37,771 nt of DNA from a virus (IMGVR_UViG_3300027800_000015:1-37771), one strand, 5' to 3'. Shown: positions 18,296-25,336, counted from the first letter of the stretch. A program made the numbers and translations. Notes: generated from the letters alone by a model not told the origin.

Positions 18296-19144
18296 TTAAA
18301 ATAAAGTTTGCGCCGTCTTGTTAATTTCAGTCCGAGCAAAACCCAGCGATTTTATTTCGTCAATCTTCAATTTACTCGATTCAATCCACGCCTTAGCATC
18401 TTTAAAAAACGGTTTCTTAATTTCAAAACAATATGCTTTGCGTCCCATATTATCAGCAGCTACATGAGTAGAACCTGAACCAGCAACCGGATCAATTACC
18501 ACATCACCAGGATCTGTAAATATTTCGATCAAACGTTCCAATAATTTAACTGGTTTTTGTGTCGGGTGTATTTTTACAGATTCATTATCACGCGGCCAGT
18601 CCATGCAATTAAATATCATTTTGCCGTTATTATTGAATTTCGGGAGCCGATCGCGGTATAGTAGTACGGCATATTCACAGTTACCCACAACCTTCATGTT
18701 AGCTTTTAATACCTGTGCTGAAAAATTCTTTCTGAATACCAGATTAATATAATTATTCAACCCGTATTGTTTAGCCAGATTTATAAGATAAAACTGCTGT
18801 TCAAACTCACAAAATACTATCATACATGGGGCTTTGGATTTTAGTTTTTTGCCTCCGTTTTCATCCTTTAATATCTCGATTTCTTCCTTTGTCAGTTTCG
18901 GCTCATTCCTGAGCATTGAACTGCAAAAGTGCATAAACTCTTTTGGCCGGAAGTCTTTATCGGTATCGAAAAACTCAGTTCCTGCGAGTGCAGATTCCCC
19001 GTTTTTATTATCACCGTCTTTGTACCATGCCGGATTCGAAGCATAGGCATTATTCCCTAAGTTGTACGGAATATCAGCGATTATCAGCTGTGCCTTTGGA
19101 ATTTGATAAGGCTTGTAATTCTGGAAGTGGTCGTTTATTATCAT
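18296..19144 (-). CDS. DNA amino-methyltransferase (N6-adenine or N4-cytosine, beta-type)
   Basis: 282 residues from the ATG at 19144 (MIINDHFQNY). The catalytic motif IV is DIPY at 24-27 near the N-terminus, and the AdoMet-binding motif is DPVAGSGST near residue 222. This order (IV before I) is that of the permuted beta group. IHPTQKPVKLLERLI precedes motif I as usual. It is probably a solitary phage methyltransferase that protects phage DNA; no cognate endonuclease is nearby. The variant DIPY instead of DPPY is tolerated in this family. Confidence 0.9.
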   Translation of the reverse strand: MIINDHFQNYKPYQIPKAQLIIADIPYNLGNNAYASNPAWYKDGDNKNGESALAGTEFFDTDKDFRPKEFMHFCSSMLRNEPKLTKEEIEILKDENGGKKLKSKAPCMIVFCEFEQQFYLINLAKQYGLNNYINLVFRKNFSAQVLKANMKVVGNCEYAVLLYRDRLPKFNNNGKMIFNCMDWPRDNESVKIHPTQKPVKLLERLIEIFTDPGDVVIDPVAGSGSTHVAADNMGRKAYCFEIKKPFFKDAKAWIESSKLKIDEIKSLGFARTEINKTAQTLF

Positions 19145-19256
19145 TGTTTTGTTTTTCTTTTTGCCCCTCACCCCTCACCCGCCCAGCTACAACAGCAAGC
19201 GCAAAGATCAGGATAATGAAGGCGGTTAGTATTAGGTTATTTCTTATGGCTTTCAT
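19074..19256 (-). CDS. Small single-pass membrane protein, overlapping the methyltransferase start
   Basis: 60 residues. It begins MKAIRNNLILTAFIILIF, an N-terminal membrane anchor, with a polar tail (GEGQKEKQNNDNK). The start overlaps the stop of the upstream gene by 20 nt and the 3' end overlaps the methyltransferase by 71 nt. It would fill an otherwise empty 92-nt gap. The long overlap makes it less certain, but the clean membrane anchor and gap position favour a real gene. Confidence 0.45.
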   Translation of the reverse strand: MKAIRNNLILTAFIILIFALAVVAGRVRGEGQKEKQNNDNKRPLPELQALSNSKGTADNR

Positions 19257-20025
19257 CTATTATACATGGTACTGTGTTATTCCACGATATTGAATGGTGA
19301 ATGCGGGGGTTTGAAGTGTTCATCATTGATACAACCACTCCAGAAGGATGCATCATAACCGTTGTGAATGCTTTACAGTATGTTCCGTATTTAAGATACA
19401 TATCTGTTATTCCGCCTGTTTGCTTTTGCGTAGCCTTTTGCACTAATGCAGCCATAGGTATAGTAAAAAATAAACTGCCACGACTCCCTAAAGTTGTATA
19501 AGTATTTACATCTTCATTCATTGCGCCTATAAACTTAAATGGCCTATCTACTGAGCAAATAAAGCTATTCATACATTTACGTAATAGTGGCCTATTAATT
19601 ACAGTTGGGTTTTCAACACCTCCAATAAAATCGCCCCCCTGTGCAAGTGCAACAGCTAAAATGCTTTTGTTATCAGTGAAAAAATTTAAGTATGAATCAA
19701 AAACAAAATCCAAAGTTTTTATTTTTTGCACTAATAATCGTTCATTTAATTTACATGCATACCTAAATTCAAATGCAGTATAATCGATAATAAGTTCATA
19801 ATTGAATACTGAGTGCCGTTTCGCTGCTTCAATCAAAAATAGCTTTTCGTTATCTGTTACGTTTGAGTTTTTAATTTCGGTAATAAGTCGATTAGTTTTG
19901 TATGTATCAACCAATTCAAAGATATTCGGCATACGGTTCTTAGGCTCGTATATAGGTGCTTTTATCTTTGATGTGTATTTCTGTTCGGCCTTTTCTTCCT
20001 GCCCGAATAGGTTAAATTGTTTCAT
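19237..20025 (-). CDS. Hypothetical protein upstream of the methyltransferase
   Basis: 262 residues. It starts MKQFNLFGQEEKAEQKY, and the FNLFGQ start is a short motif that resembles clamp-binding peptides (QxxLF-like), though this is only a visual similarity. The middle is helical. The second half has strand-rich segments (GSLFFTIPMAALVQKAT, KAFTTVMMHPSGVVVSMM, HHSISWNN). No domain was recognised. It lies directly before the methyltransferase block and could belong to DNA modification or replication. Confidence 0.65.
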   Translation of the reverse strand: MKQFNLFGQEEKAEQKYTSKIKAPIYEPKNRMPNIFELVDTYKTNRLITEIKNSNVTDNEKLFLIEAAKRHSVFNYELIIDYTAFEFRYACKLNERLLVQKIKTLDFVFDSYLNFFTDNKSILAVALAQGGDFIGGVENPTVINRPLLRKCMNSFICSVDRPFKFIGAMNEDVNTYTTLGSRGSLFFTIPMAALVQKATQKQTGGITDMYLKYGTYCKAFTTVMMHPSGVVVSMMNTSNPRIHHSISWNNTVPCIIDESHKK

Positions 20026-20229: not shown

Positions 20230-20318
20230 TACTGAGTGAGTTTAATTATGAGTATAAGAACTGCCAATGCAGCAAGTGCAAACAGTTCAATTTTGGCTGA
20301 TGTTTCGTAGTGTTCCAT
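20229..20318 (-). CDS. 29-residue membrane peptide
   Basis: The ATG at 20318 overlaps the upstream stop (TAATG), and its own TAA at 20229-20231 overlaps the next ATG in the same way. Double coupling and perfect gap filling support it. Sequence: polar start MEHYETSAKIE, then a single hydrophobic helix of about 16 residues. Likely an inner-membrane micropeptide. Role unknown. Confidence 0.6.
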   Translation of the reverse strand: MEHYETSAKIELFALAALAVLILIIKLTQ

Positions 20319-20575
20319 TAGTCGACAGGATAAAGATCGGTTAGTAATATGAATTTAACGTCCGAATAAGTACGGCATTCACACACGCGGTCGACCGATT
20401 CCAAACGATATGTTATTCCGTTGCATTGAACGAGGTCGTTACGTTGCAGACATTTGCGCCAGTCGTTCAGATAAACCTCGTTTTCTGCATCGGTTGTACG
20501 TCCCATGTGGATTACGAATAGCGCTACTGATGCTATGGCAACTATGCCAAGTGCTATAATTATTAGAGTTGTCAT
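20318..20575 (-). CDS. Small membrane-anchored protein
   Basis: 85 residues. Residues 2-23 form one transmembrane helix (TLIIIALGIVAIASVALFVI). The soluble part holds three cysteines (LQRNDLVQCNGITYRL, VCECRTY) and short strands. ATGA overlap with the preceding gene at 20572. Probably an early membrane protein. No family recognised. Confidence 0.6.
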   Translation of the reverse strand: MTTLIIIALGIVAIASVALFVIHMGRTTDAENEVYLNDWRKCLQRNDLVQCNGITYRLESVDRVCECRTYSDVKFILLTDLYPVD

Positions 20576-20772
20576 ATGATTTGTTTTTTAAGGTTCAAAA
20601 TCTGTTGTGTTTCGTATTGTTCTACCTCTTCAGCAGCCAACTCAATAGCCTGGTTGCAGGCTTCGCGCATGGCGTTGATTATAGCCTGATAATCCATTGT
20701 AACCATTTCATTGTATGGTATTTCAGGACATCCGTAATCGTTTATTATTTCATCTAAATTAACCGTTTTCAT
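20572..20772 (-). CDS. Small acidic helical protein, first gene behind an early promoter
   Basis: 66 residues, mostly helical and acidic (YQAIINAMREACNQAIELAAEEVEQYE). It starts 17 nt beyond the -7 element TAACTTTG (20790-20797), so it is the first gene of this early unit, which probably continues to the methyltransferase. No domain recognised. Confidence 0.6.
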   Translation of the reverse strand: MKTVNLDEIINDYGCPEIPYNEMVTMDYQAIINAMREACNQAIELAAEEVEQYETQQILNLKKQII

Positions 20773-20789: not shown

Positions 20790-20866
20790 CAAAGTTAAAC
20801 TAAATACTTCTGTTTGGTTCTCGTTAGTCGCTGACATTTACCACTGTTCTGATTGAGATTTGTCAA
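20790..20866 (-). promoter_or_regulatory. Early promoter/operator, copy A
   Basis: Minus-strand order: dyad TTGACAAATCTCAA (20866-20853), 12 nt, TAAATGTCAGCG (20840-20829), 31 nt, TAACTTTG (20797-20790). The same blocks occur at copies B and C. The rest of 20773-21149, a 377-nt stretch without a gene, holds only an AT-rich spacer and the dyad element listed separately. Confidence 0.72.
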
Positions 20867-20949
20867 TGTGGCAGCTATTTATTTAACAATTCATTAACAG
20901 TTTTTTAATTGTAAGTAGTTGATTCTTAGAGTGTTTACGGTAGTGGTAG

Positions 20950-21079
20950 TTAGCGAATTGTTAGCCAGCAATTGGCTGTTACTGAAATCTATTAAAGCGT
21001 CAATCTAAATTCTCATACATGGGTCGTGTTTGAAACGTGATACAGCCAACATGCTGCTAACACAGGCTATACACAATGC
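20950..21079. repeat. attC-like dyad element 1
   Basis: Arms GTTAGCcAGCAaTTGGCTGT (20960-20979) and its imperfect complement ending GCTGCTAAC (to 21061). Outside the arms stand TTAGC on one side and GGCTATACACAATGC (21065-21079) on the other. The latter pairs, with 13 of 15 matches, with GCACTGTGCATAGCC at 21673-21687, on the far side of two genes. Confidence 0.6.
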
Positions 21080-21149
21080 TTGCATTTCGTTTTCAATCTG
21101 ACTGTGTGCGTAATCAATCATAATTTTAATGTTTTGTTAACGAGCAATC

Positions 21150-21365
21150 CTACTCGCCATTATCTGTTTGTGTTATTTCAACATCATATCCAAGATGCTG
21201 TAAAACTTGCTCTAAAATTGTTTTTACATCCTGGTTATGGAAAGGCATTTCTACACCGTTAACCTTTACTAAAGTTCCATAATTTGTGCAACAACCATCG
21301 GTACAATTATAACAATAGTCATCAAGCGTTACTACTATTTTTGGTTTATTGTCCATTGATCTCAC
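21150..21365 (-). CDS. Small Cys-rich protein in the repeat-bounded array
   Basis: 71 residues from the ATG at 21365; an ATG at 21356 would remove three. A cluster of five cysteines (CYNCTDGCCTNYG, about 18-27) suggests metal binding, followed by a strand (TLVKVNGVEMPF), a helix (VKTILEQVLQHLG) and a strand (DVEITQ). No family recognised. It overlaps the upstream gene by 20 nt. Both lie between a pair of inverted-repeat arms (21065-21079 and 21673-21687). Confidence 0.58.
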   Translation of the reverse strand: MRSMDNKPKIVVTLDDYCYNCTDGCCTNYGTLVKVNGVEMPFHNQDVKTILEQVLQHLGYDVEITQTDNGE

Positions 21366-21606
21366 TTATAAATTTATCAACCAACATTTCATTATCTTCT
21401 CTTATGTCCACATTATCCCACATCCACTCAATGAAATCCATTAAAAGACGTTTCCTATGTTGTTCCATCGTGTATTCTTCCTGTGATTCTCTACTTATCT
21501 GATTTTGCATATCTTTTTCCATTTGTCGGTTCATTTCTTCTTCCCGATCATAATGTTCATTTACGCAATCTTCAAAGTGTTGCTGACTTCCAATATATTC
21601 TTCCAT
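21346..21606 (-). CDS. Small acidic helical protein in the array
   Basis: 86 residues, strongly charged and helical (HYDREEEMNRQMEKDMQNQI, EEYTMEQHRKRLLMDFIEWMWDNV). Coiled coil likely. It overlaps the Cys-rich gene by 20 nt at its 3' end. No known domain. Enclosed with that gene by the L-type arms at 21065-21079 and 21673-21687. Confidence 0.58.
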   Translation of the reverse strand: MEEYIGSQQHFEDCVNEHYDREEEMNRQMEKDMQNQISRESQEEYTMEQHRKRLLMDFIEWMWDNVDIREDNEMLVDKFISEINGQ

Positions 21607-21672
21607 AAGGCAATACGGGTTTAAAAAACATTAAAATTATTTCCTTCTGTACTTCTATTTAACTTCACGGCT

Positions 21673-21770
21673 GCACTGTGCATAGCCTAATACGTTATGC
21701 GCCATTGTAAAGAAAGAAGAGAAAAAAGACTAATGGAACAACGGCGCATAACATTGGCTATAACCAATAG
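21673..21770. repeat. attC-like dyad element 2
   Basis: Central hairpin: GTTATGCGCCATTGT (21694-21708) against ACAACGGCGCATAAC (21738-21752), 14 of 15 pairs, loop of 29 nt rich in GAAGA/GAAAA. Outer arms: GCACTGTGCATAGCC (21673-21687) and GGCTATAACCAATAG (21756-21770), which pair with distant partners at 21065-21079 and 22064-22078, across genes. Confidence 0.65.
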
Positions 21771-21794
21771 AATTTAATTTGAGTTAGACGAGGC

Positions 21795-22013
21795 CTACAA
21801 TAGATAATTATCCAAAGCCCTCATAATATCGTACTGTGCAAATCCAGATAATGCGGAGTACAAATCCTCATCCTCAATAGCATCTTCAAAGTTGCCTTCC
21901 GTTCCTCTTGCTCCAGTTGGTGTTGAAATGTGCTTTTCAACGTGGGTTGCATCACCTAATTGAACTGTTGTAGTCCATCCTTTAGGGGTAATTTCAATCG
22001 TTACTTTTTTCAT
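21795..22013 (-). CDS. Small acidic protein in the array
   Basis: 72 residues. It begins MKKVTIEITPKGWTTTVQLGD with two strands, then a Gly/Thr loop and an acidic C-terminus (FEDAIEDEDLYSALSGFAQY). No family recognised. Flanked by the arms GGCTATAACCAATAG (21756-21770) and CTACTGGTCATAGCC (22064-22078), which match at 13 of 15 positions. Its leader carries TTAGGTAAATTGAG (22032-22045, plus strand), shared with two other genes of the array. Confidence 0.58.
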   Translation of the reverse strand: MKKVTIEITPKGWTTTVQLGDATHVEKHISTPTGARGTEGNFEDAIEDEDLYSALSGFAQYDIMRALDNYLL

Positions 22014-22063
22014 GGTTAATTTTATTTTAAATTAGGTAAATTGAGTATTTGAGGTAATTAAAT

Positions 22064-22093
22064 CTACTGGTCATAGCCTTATCGTTATACACA
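22064..22093. repeat. Left boundary arms of the cytosine methyltransferase unit
   Basis: CTACTGGTCATAGCC (22064-22078) pairs back across the 72-residue gene with 21756-21770. After a 5-nt spacer, GTTATACACA (22084-22093) pairs with AGTGTATAAC at 22812-22821 on the other side of the methyltransferase gene (9 of 10 matches). Confidence 0.55.
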
Positions 22094-22111
22094 ATAGAAA
22101 AAACAACATGG

Positions 22112-22771
22112 TTAGACGAGTTCCAATGCTCGGCCCCATTGTTCGGCCATTGCTTCGGCTATTTTTTTAAATGTCTTACTCCGCAGCGTTTGCCGGCTTT
22201 CTCCGGTTGATAACATTGCATCTGTAAAATATCTCGGTTTTCCGCTTTTATCAATGTATGTCGGTTGTGGTTCATCGCTTGCGGTTCTGTCCAGAAATAA
22301 ATTATCAATCATTGCGTATTGTAAAGGCGGTAATCCTTTAAGCCAGAAGCAAGTTCTTTTTTTGTCGCTATCTCCAAAATAATACGGATGTATAATTTGA
22401 TTAGCCTTTAAAGTGCTATTCATAAAGCCTACCGGGTTTTCAATACATATTTTTTCAATCGGGGCCCGCCAAAGTTGTAAGAAAAATTCAGCAGCTTCAA
22501 TTCTGTTTTTCCATCGGTCAATTGCCTTTTGTCCGTACCTGTCAATATTGTAATAACCAACAGCTGCATTTGATAAATAGGTGCATGGCGGGTGTGCAAT
22601 CATCATATCATATTTTCCGCTATAAGCCTCTTTTATTGCATCTCCCACAATATGCCATTCAGGATGTCCTCCGGTGCATTCTTTAATATCATTACTCCAG
22701 GCTTCAATACCTAACTTTCGCAATTCGATTGTTACTGCCTGGCTTTCTTCACATGCTACTAATACTTTCAT
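22112..22771 (-). CDS. Cytosine-C5 methyltransferase-like protein
   Basis: 219 residues, short for the family. It begins KVLVACEESQAVTIELRKLG (AdoMet-binding strand and loop in place of the usual FxGxG). Motif IV is HPPC with C63, and motif VI is ENP at 111-113. The following region (HPYYFGDSDKKRTCFWLKGLPP) is typical of phage-encoded 'DNA cytosine methyltransferase' proteins. No large target-recognition domain is present, so activity or specificity may be altered. It could also act on nucleotides or be a related base-modifying enzyme. It is the only enzyme in the repeat-bounded array and is flanked by GTTATACACA/AGTGTATAAC arms. Confidence 0.8.
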   Translation of the reverse strand: MKVLVACEESQAVTIELRKLGIEAWSNDIKECTGGHPEWHIVGDAIKEAYSGKYDMMIAHPPCTYLSNAAVGYYNIDRYGQKAIDRWKNRIEAAEFFLQLWRAPIEKICIENPVGFMNSTLKANQIIHPYYFGDSDKKRTCFWLKGLPPLQYAMIDNLFLDRTASDEPQPTYIDKSGKPRYFTDAMLSTGESRQTLRSKTFKKIAEAMAEQWGRALELV

Positions 22772-22811
22772 AATTTCTTTAACTTAGGTAAATTGAGCGT
22801 TGTTTTTCTAC

Positions 22812-22984
22812 AGTGTATAACACGTGCTATATTTCAGTCTGTGTGTTTTACAAGTAATTCGGGACATTTAGTTCAACGTGCCAGCCCGAAAATATAGCAC
22901 CATTCGTTAGTGGCAAGCGGAAAGAAAAAAGATAATCTTAGGTTCGGTATTTTAATAATCCGCCAGCCACTAACATGCGCTAAG
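22812..22984. repeat. attC-like element 3 with adjoining hairpin
   Basis: GTATAAC (22815-22821), 2 nt, GTGCTATATTTC (22824-22835), 52 nt, GAAAATATAGCAC (22888-22900), 5 nt, GTTAGTG (22906-22912). The two inner boxes pair over 12 bp with a single extra A, as in integron attC L boxes. Then GTTAGTGGCAAGCGGA (22906-22921) pairs with TCCGCCAGCCACTAAC (22959-22974), and GCTAAG follows at 22979-22984. No gene lies in 22772-22990. Confidence 0.65.
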
Positions 22985-22990
22985 AATCAA

Positions 22991-23221
22991 TTAAATGTTT
23001 TGAGTGGTACGCGTGGGTTCGGCATCTTCCATACACGGATTCACTTCATCACCTAAACTTTCGCCAGATAAATTGGCAAAAATTCTAACCATATCAGCTT
23101 TATTAATTCGCTTTAGCTTATTAAACTCTCTGTAGGCATTATTTAACAATTCCTGCAATTCTGCATTACATATTCTTATTCCAAAGTAAAGCCCTTCATT
23201 ATAATCTTCTGTATTTTTCAT
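22991..23221 (-). CDS. Small helical protein in the array
   Basis: 76 residues. MKNTEDYNEGLYFGIRICNAELQ leads into a helical middle (LLNNAYREFNKLKRINKADMVRIF) and an acidic, Thr-rich tail. No family recognised. The leader holds the TTAGGTTAAATGAG variant (23235-23248, plus strand) of the shared leader block. It lies between dyad elements 3 and 4. Confidence 0.57.
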   Translation of the reverse strand: MKNTEDYNEGLYFGIRICNAELQELLNNAYREFNKLKRINKADMVRIFANLSGESLGDEVNPCMEDAEPTRTTQNI

Positions 23222-23270
23222 AATTTCTCAATATTTAGGTTAAATGAGTATTTTAGGTAACTATTAATCA

Positions 23271-23370
23271 GTGCATAGCATCGGAGCGTTATGCACTACT
23301 GTAAAAGGTCGTAGGTGCGGAAGAAGAGAAACAATGGAACAGCAGTGCATAACAACGGCTATATACAAGG
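23271..23370. repeat. attC-like dyad element 4
   Basis: Central hairpin: GTTATGCACTACTGT (23288-23302) against ACAGCAGTGCATAAC (23339-23353), 14 of 15 pairs, loop of 36 nt with GAAGAAGAGAAA as in element 2. The pairs differ from element 2 on both arms (GCGCCATTG versus GCACTACTG), so the stem is conserved by compensating changes. GGCTATATACAAGG (23357-23370) pairs with 23712-23725 across the next gene. Confidence 0.65.
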
Positions 23371-23445
23371 CGGCACGTATCAGCAATAATGAAAGGGCGC
23401 AACATACATTGCATAGTTTTAATAATATGGTTAACGAGAAGGCAG

Positions 23446-23649
23446 TTATTTGTTCCATTTTTTCTTATACCTGATTATGAAATCATCAGGAAATTCAGAT
23501 ACCCAACCACATCGGCAAACAAACTGACTTTTATTTTCATCCCATTGTGTTCTTGGTGCGCCAGCTATACAATCATCCATATTCCCACAATACGGGGAGT
23601 AACCATCTCTGTGCATTAGATTTTCTCTTACTATTGAATTTTCTTCCAT
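23446..23649 (-). CDS. Small zinc-ribbon-like protein in the array
   Basis: 67 residues. Four cysteines in two groups (PYCGNMDDC, 21 and 27; VCRCGW, 45 and 47) could form a small zinc-binding ribbon. Basic C-terminus (IIRYKKKWNK). No family recognised. Enclosed by GGCTATATACAAGG (23357-23370) and CCCTGTATATAGCC (23712-23725), which match at 13 of 14 positions. The 224 nt between this gene and the one at 23221 hold dyad element 4 and no gene. Confidence 0.58.
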   Translation of the reverse strand: MEENSIVRENLMHRDGYSPYCGNMDDCIAGAPRTQWDENKSQFVCRCGWVSEFPDDFIIRYKKKWNK

Positions 23650-23711
23650 TTTTGAGTTATTTTAGCATTATTAAAACTATTACTTTGAATTTTCAATTTT
23701 ACTTCGGGTAG

Positions 23712-23746
23712 CCCTGTATATAGCCCTGTGCGTTATGTGCCATTGT
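23712..23746. repeat. attC-like element 5, single side
   Basis: CCCTGTATATAGCC (23712-23725), 6-nt spacer, GTTATGTGCCATTGT (23732-23746). The second box is nearly identical to that of element 2 and is followed by the same AAAGAA. No complementary GGCACATAAC arm was found above the nuclease gene, so this may mark the edge of the array. Confidence 0.55.
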
Positions 23747-23752
23747 AAAGAA

Positions 23753-24358
23753 TCAAAACAAAAACTTCTCTTCCATTTCGGTTAATATGCCGCGCGCTTC
23801 GATAACTTTCAACTGTAATGACTGAATCACAGCCGGATCACACTCAACATCAAACGACTTTATTCGCCTTTTATCTTCAACCTGGTAAATAATGCCAGCA
23901 TCCCAATTAGTTGCCGGAGTATCCAGCAGAACATAAACCAATTTAGCTTTACGTTTGCCTGTCAGGTGCATGTACACCTGTAGTTGATAGTAGTAATCCA
24001 TGTTTGGTATTTCGTTCTCAAATAACGGAAACGTGAAGCAATCCCATGAATTTTTAATATCAATAATCATATCTTCCAGAATCATATCCGGAGTTCCGGT
24101 AAAATATTCATCTTCAAAATTAGCCTCGTTTTTCAAAGCAAATTTAATATCTAACATTTTTACAGTAAGGTTTATAGCTTCATCTTCCATAAACACACCC
24201 TTGTCGATGTATTTAGATTTGATTTGCTTCTGAACGCCATAAATTTCGGATGTTAACCACTCTTTAAGGTAGGTTTTACCACCTACTGAGATAAGGCAGC
24301 CTTTGCCGTTTGGAACTAATGTTCCGGCGGATGATGCACGGAGTTTAAATTTTTTCAT
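23753..24358 (-). CDS. YqaJ/Cas4-like PD-(D/E)XK exonuclease
   Basis: 201 residues. The nuclease core has E60 in the EDEAIN helix, GTPDMI (D91), IIDIKNSWD (D100, K102) and then YYYQLQVYMHLTGKRK, the Q-Y helix typical of YqaJ and lambda-type exonucleases. The N-terminal RASSAGTL is also a family feature. It would resect double-stranded ends for the annealing protein encoded just upstream, with which it overlaps by 14 nt. Together they form a phage recombination pair. It abuts the edge of the repeat-bounded array. Confidence 0.87.
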   Translation of the reverse strand: MKKFKLRASSAGTLVPNGKGCLISVGGKTYLKEWLTSEIYGVQKQIKSKYIDKGVFMEDEAINLTVKMLDIKFALKNEANFEDEYFTGTPDMILEDMIIDIKNSWDCFTFPLFENEIPNMDYYYQLQVYMHLTGKRKAKLVYVLLDTPATNWDAGIIYQVEDKRRIKSFDVECDPAVIQSLQLKVIEARGILTEMEEKFLF

Positions 24359-24977
24359 TAAGAGCCTCCTTTACTTCGTCAGTTAGTGTATATTTTTTTT
24401 CAATCTGTTCAATCGTATAACTACCAGATTTTACAGCCGCTTTCATTTTTATAAACAATTCGCTGCCTATTTCAATCGGTTGTAGTTTAGTGTCTTCTGA
24501 ATAAGTCATTTGCTGTTTACGGTTCAAATCAGCCCCGAATAGTTTACCGAAATGATCGCAAGCATCTTTAATTGCAATAGTCTTAGCAATAGGAAGTGCC
24601 ATTTCAACCGCTCCCCTGTTTACGTTTGACATATCCATTAATAAACTGCCAGTGCCGGATTTGGTTTGTATCTCCTTTGCCCCTACTCCGTCGTGATAAT
24701 ACCACTCTTCAGAATCAGAATACCGGTAATGTACCCGAACCGTTACTTCGATAGCGTTTAACAGGGTTCCGGTTTTGATAACCTCAATTTTGTAATTGAT
24801 TTTAAAGAATGTTTTGAGCAACCATTCTACCCGCTCAATAGGCAGATAGTTGAAGTCTTTAATAAACGGGTGCTTTTTTACCCATTCCGCCGGCGGCTCC
24901 TGGTTAAGAGCCACCATTATTTTATCCTGTTTAACGAGGCGTTCAATGTTGCCTTCGAATTTAGTGATGTTTGTCAT
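24345..24977 (-). CDS. Rad52-like single-strand annealing protein
   Basis: 210 residues. The central part (about 30-155) resembles the Rad52/Rad22 fold: ERVEWLLKTFF, VTVRVHYR, a beta-hairpin HDGVGAKEIQTKSG, and AVEMALPIAKTIAIKDACDHFGKLFGADLN (given in part), whose 'A.KDA..HFG..FG..L' is the family's best-known stretch. It anneals complementary strands during phage recombination. The gene pairs with the YqaJ-like nuclease. RecT/ERF types are less likely on these motifs. Confidence 0.77.
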   Translation of the reverse strand: MTNITKFEGNIERLVKQDKIMVALNQEPPAEWVKKHPFIKDFNYLPIERVEWLLKTFFKINYKIEVIKTGTLLNAIEVTVRVHYRYSDSEEWYYHDGVGAKEIQTKSGTGSLLMDMSNVNRGAVEMALPIAKTIAIKDACDHFGKLFGADLNRKQQMTYSEDTKLQPIEIGSELFIKMKAAVKSGSYTIEQIEKKYTLTDEVKEALNEKI

Positions 24978-25256: not shown

Positions 25257-25333
25257 CTAAATTACAAATTATATATACATTCTGTTCTCTATCACCGCTG
25301 ACATTTAGCCGTGTTTCGGTTGAGATTTGTCAA
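25257..25333 (-). promoter_or_regulatory. Early promoter/operator, copy B
   Basis: Minus-strand order: TTGACAAATCTCAA (25333-25320), 12 nt, TAAATGTCAGCG (25307-25296), 31 nt, TAATTTAG (25264-25257). The blocks and spacings equal those of copy A. The dyad almost touches the stop of the upstream gene (25337). Confidence 0.72.
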
Positions 25334-25336
25334 TGG

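Follow-up and report, generated by a model that had tools for sequence, protein, structure and literature searches.

An alternating series of imperfect stems in a phage genome is a probable integron-type cassette array with recombinase-linked counterparts in other viral contigs

What is a run of small genes set among attC-like inverted repeats doing inside a phage? The question is raised by the window analysed here, the whole 37,771-base virus record IMGVR_UViG_3300027800_000015, in which the main genes all lie on the minus strand and which carries a terminase match together with readable capsid-, tail- and replication-type genes. The first-pass annotation had proposed an integron-cassette-like array with attC-like structure, a proposal now backed by asymmetric stems, by gene swaps between relatives and by homologous arrays across many phages. 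The existence of the array is confirmed; it is of integron type and is probably a recombinase-less, CALIN-like cassette array within a phage-borne integron-like system. It is flanked on one side by an exonuclease gene (23753–24358, minus strand; phrog_5715, E 8e-47) and on the other by small genes (20318–20772). Adjoining the exonuclease gene, 24345–24977 (minus strand) encodes a 210-aa protein of possible single-strand-annealing type, for which AlphaFold gave a low-confidence beta-beta-beta-helix model (pLDDT 53) and which is a possible helper of homologous shuffling. A 37–40% homologue of this protein, with an exonuclease alongside, occurs in the TM7 phage DolZOral124_53_65 (L126). The window also holds a TET-associated glycosyltransferase match (19237–20025; PF20691, E 1.7e-9) and an N6/N4 methyltransferase (18296–19171), on the basis of which the phage may carry modified bases. 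A possibly regulatory 40-nt element is present twice outside the array (20829–20868 and 25296–25335, 85% identity) and also in L159 and L161.

In window coordinates, and with sequences written in the sense of the genes (minus strand), stems of R type (GTTA...TAAC) and of L type (GGCTA...TAGCC) follow one another in unbroken alternation across 20959–23725. They lie 3–8 nt apart, with spacers of 3–4 nt from L' to R' and 5–8 nt from R'' to L''. Followed in the direction of the genes, the array starts at the 3' end of the exonuclease gene with a lone R'' box (CTTTACAATGGCACATAAC, 23731–23750), for which no R' partner was found. Next come an L unit (23357–23725, stem GGCTATATACAGGGC/GCCTTGTATATAGCC) around a 67-aa gene (23446–23649), a 66-nt R hairpin without a gene (23288–23353), a weak-stemmed L unit (22979–23279) around a 76-aa gene (22991–23221) and a 69-nt R hairpin, again without a gene (22906–22974). 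A short L unit of 75 nt (22825–22899), also geneless, forms an attC-like site that spans 22815–22912 when its flanking R boxes are counted. It is followed by a 738-nt R unit (22084–22821) in the ordinary cassette layout around a DNA methyltransferase gene (22112–22771; phrog_757, E 8e-49). The remaining units are an L unit (21756–22078, stem GGCTATGACCAGTAG/CTATTGGTTATAGCC) around a 72-aa gene (21795–22013), a geneless 59-nt R hairpin (21694–21752), a 623-nt L unit (21065–21687, stem GGCTATGCACAGTGC/GCATTGTGTATAGCC) enclosing an 86-aa gene (21346–21606) and a 71-aa gene (21150–21365), and a geneless R hairpin of about 103 nt (20959–21061) that closes the array. The methyltransferase is the only gene of the array that lies between attC sites, in an R interval; most genes of the window and its relatives occupy L intervals. 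Relatives were retrieved with the 210-aa protein beside the exonuclease or, for L144, with its hairpin. A second inverted repeat inside the L units joins gene leader and trailer (23413–23426/23667–23680 and 21120–21141/21619–21640), and these repeats adjoin a CGTTAAC motif 3' of the stop codon in the window as in L130 and L144.

Every repeat that the first-pass annotation had named was recovered where it had placed it. On the gene strand, the L pairs 21065–21079/21673–21687 and 21756–21770/22064–22078 match at 13 of 15 positions by Watson–Crick pairing and at all 15 when two G·T pairs are counted, and the arms 23357–23371/23711–23725 match at 14 of 15 plus one G·T. The R hairpins 21694–21752, 22906–22974 and 23288–23353 fold far more stably than shuffled sequences on that strand (z = -7.1, -4.8 and -4.5, respectively), and an Rfam scan of R hairpins returned no match. 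The R pair spanning the methyltransferase is present, with arms that extend to 22084–22102/22803–22821. The inventory itself lacked the R hairpin 20959–21061, the short L site 22825–22899, the weak L stem 22979–23279, the lone R box 23731–23750 and the fixed G·T position described below, and it did not point out that placing genes in L intervals reverses the usual cassette layout.

A motif-free test found six consecutive abutting inverted repeats in the window, compared with a maximum of three in shuffles (n = 100; three in 1 shuffle, one in 77), and 12 in L130, compared with at most two in 40 shuffles. A chance origin of the repeat chain is excluded. Stricter arms were adopted because a looser setting (11/12 arms) separated weakly from shuffles, with seven abutting repeats in the window and up to six in shuffles. 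L127 and L131, whose arrays are smaller, were not distinct with strict arms alone and became so only through a signature detector. This detector, whose stem signature was derived on part of the data later scanned with it, reported chains of at least three stems on the gene strand only and at most two stems in shuffles. An initial wide pattern search had returned mostly chance matches. Stem sequences vary freely and loop lengths differ by hundreds of bases, and the window contains attC-like sites close together, each with R''/L''...L'/R' boxes and an unpaired spacer.

The stems share a one-sided imperfection. When the two arms are aligned, each of the 20 R stems listed has G facing T at column 11, and nearly all L stems have such a pair at column 11 or 12; a second G·T is frequent at column 7, and some stems have an extra base directly ahead. 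The position of the G·T is the same whatever the stem sequence and whether or not a gene is enclosed. The resulting strand asymmetry is that expected of attC sites, in which strand choice is set by one-sided imperfections, namely extrahelical bases and the unpaired spacer (PMC2727003). Polarity by the known attC rules is ambiguous, since the conserved G after AAC and the extra base point in opposite ways. Of the GTTRRRY/RYYYAAC-like ends claimed for the array, the GTTA/TAAC core holds and the strict consensus does not; the R boxes of Polaribacter phage P12002L likewise depart from RYYYAAC/GTTRRRY.

Comparison with related phages revealed the same kind of array in L130, L131 and L127; in the close relative L158 the exonuclease is not followed by an array. 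L127 and L131 have flanks that are about 92% identical and carry different units at one site. The window and L130 (14563–14635) have a short L site in common (GTGCTATAT..ATATAGCACGT) and different neighbouring R arms. The R unit that follows this site holds a different methyltransferase in each phage, and its arms differ between the two yet remain complementary. An R hairpin of about 100 nt is common to L130 and L131 at 96% identity with different genes on both sides. The closing hairpin of the window (20959–21061) has homologues in L127, L130 and L131, and the 59-nt hairpin (21694–21752) belongs to a family found twice in L130 and also in L144. A 67% homologue of the window's 71-aa protein lies inside an L unit of L127. 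Gene differences thus respect the repeat borders in both L127/L131 and window/L130, the comparison that the first-pass annotation had proposed as its own test. Some of these exchanges look like homologous recombination in conserved stems. L units of L130 (12950–13345) and L144 (1142–1516) contain YopX-like proteins with the same arms and diverged coding sequence, an identity based on a Pfam match for the L130 protein only. PAPS-reductase-like genes recur as cassettes in L127 (5424–5933) and among the cassettes of A6.

At least 30 further viral contigs carry similar stems, as do the isolated Polaribacter phages Leef_1 and P12002L. A 73–75-nt L site is near-identical across 25 viral contigs in which the R arms differ. 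Most of these phages have the ordinary cassette layout, with genes in R intervals of 110–998 nt and L sites mostly of 40–110 nt: 38 of 42 L intervals do not exceed 110 nt, and 31 of 47 R intervals contain an open reading frame of at least 50 aa. The layout is reversed in the window group, where 9 of 12 R intervals are no longer than 101 nt and 11 of 14 L intervals hold genes. DNA methyltransferases make up 18 of 61 cassette genes (Pfam, families summed). P12002L carries the same R stem with the G·T signature as the window-type arrays, and an attC of this phage was reported to be IntI1-active, although the assayed sequence is not necessarily the R stem compared here (PMC9892861). Leef_1 has stems, site and integrase together; the publication on this phage names the integrase, and integrons and cassettes are absent from it.

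As previously noted, the window has no integrase, and none was found in 12 related or pattern-matched records. A tyrosine recombinase is, however, encoded in 5 of 27 array-bearing contigs, its position just after the array having been checked in three. A search with four array-contig recombinases yielded 80 recombinase loci. At 40 of these an array of at least three stems lay on the recombinase strand, always 5' of the gene, whereas none of the 80 had one on the other strand. A near-constant motif, TAnTATATGTA, follows the last R'' box (TAAC) in 47 of 60 distinct loci, compared with 3 of 60 for a control stretch; at loci whose match starts at residue 1, it lies about 54 nt upstream of the start codon. 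This end looks like an attI. The window's own array end (GCTAACTACCACTACCGTA, 20925–20960, minus strand) resembles it only weakly. In HMM and structure-sequence comparisons the linked recombinase matched XerA, XerC and XerD best, and it resembles XerA and IntI4. It lacks about 43 residues of IntI4 and scores 158.6 bits against the IntI profile, under the cut-off of 265; an IntI integrase with the IntI-specific insert was found neither in the window nor among the linked recombinases. On plasmids, relatives of the recombinase (Persicobacter, Chryseobacterium) were not accompanied by an array chain of three or more stems. At recombinase-bearing loci few L intervals are longer than 200 nt (5 of 66). 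Three of these are in L268, where genes lie in L intervals too and which is a possible intermediate toward the window's layout. Many array and recombinase contigs are fragments. Terminase scans of both sets gave few matches, and some recombinase contigs may therefore not be phages.

The mobile regulatory cassettes (PeSL) of T4 likewise have recurrent stem-loops set among small phage genes that are shuffled; in them, a stem-loop and an early promoter between genes are proposed to be moved by homologous recombination. Conserved hairpins and shared leaders were seen in the window-type arrays, and the stems of these arrays could act in RNA, as terminators or in processing or stability, while genes are shuffled by homologous recombination in repeated hairpins with the help of the exonuclease and the annealing-type protein. 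Because the imperfections are G·T on the gene strand, pairing survives in mRNA, and both the conserved 59-nt and approximately 100-nt hairpin families and the adjoining exonuclease gene suit such a mechanism. The window-type stems differ from PeSL in enclosing genes (whole genes of 300–870 nt), in being of two alternating kinds and in being linked to a recombinase and an attI-like end in other phages. In addition, U tracts and Rfam matches are absent and the G·T position is fixed rather than scattered, making an RNA role an improbable explanation. Transposon-like, MITE-like units would account for the inverted repeats, about 15 nt or longer, that terminate each unit, but the units abut without target duplications, the junction spacers differ on their two sides and obey the 3–4/5–8-nt rule, and no transposase was seen; we regard this origin as highly improbable.

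A third possibility is that the array is a CALIN that originated in a Bacteroidota host's chromosomal integron and that a host IntI recombines. Phage CALINs are known, several with methyltransferases and some with sites that are functional with IntI1 (PMC9892861). Against this, two exact attC/hairpin patterns had no match in 84,980 bacterial and archaeal species genomes (exact matching only), and arrays in viral contigs adjoin a non-IntI recombinase. The earlier suggestion that the region is fed by a host integron is thus not favoured, and we consider a host CALIN unlikely. The reported phage CALINs, which include that of P12002L (Qi et al. 2023, PMC9892861), share with the window attC-like sites, integrase-less cassettes, methyltransferase cargo and a Bacteroidota phage setting. 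They differ in that the window's genes lie mostly inside L stems, with long R and L stems alternating, and in that window-type arrays are elsewhere linked to a recombinase, a linkage not described in that study.

The recombinase-bearing phage loci have in common with IntI integrons a recombinase, an attI-like end and cassette sites that form imperfect hairpins. Integrons with IntI include class 1 and chromosomal integrons and an 'inverted' Treponema type. In contrast to IntI, the phage recombinase lacks the approximately 43 IntI4 residues, falls below the IntI cut-off and is encoded on the strand of the array, 3' to it; in contrast to its best matches among Xer proteins, it is linked to cassette arrays, not to a dif site.

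In the integron-type reading that we prefer, an imperfect stem encloses each gene or spacer and R and L stems alternate, and therefore every R''–L'' or L'–R' junction can fold like an attC. When single-stranded, such junctions would adopt an attC-like fold with an unpaired spacer and a one-sided G·T or extra base. Cassettes would be integrated or removed at the attI-like end by a tyrosine recombinase of Xer/IntI-like type, whose cuts would fall within the conserved TAAC/GTTA core. The evidence for structure and linkage is strong, and the recombination itself, with the part played in it by the recombinase, is inferred. For the window phage, this enzyme would act in trans or would formerly have been encoded in cis, as it is absent from the window. 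In this reading the layout has turned inside out in the window lineage: most genes now occupy the attC loop formed by the L stem, and R intervals have been reduced to empty hairpins of 59–103 nt. The phage would probably gain from trading accessory genes, in particular DNA methyltransferases with which it would escape host restriction.

On balance, we lean towards the view that Bacteroidota phages have a class of integron of their own, with a XerA-type recombinase lacking the IntI insert, an attI-like end and asymmetric R and L stems, of which the window is a derived, recombinase-less form with its genes moved into attC loops. Phage CALINs are already known; the linked recombinase and the inside-out layout appear undescribed, and searches of an open-access library returned no account of phage arrays linked to a recombinase or of attC loops that contain genes. 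Long, equivalent box pairs, genes in either interval and an L site common to many phages with different R arms bear on how cassettes are built. If this view is correct, phages run integron-like exchange of their own rather than just borrowing bacterial cassettes, and exchange loaded with methyltransferases could defeat host restriction.
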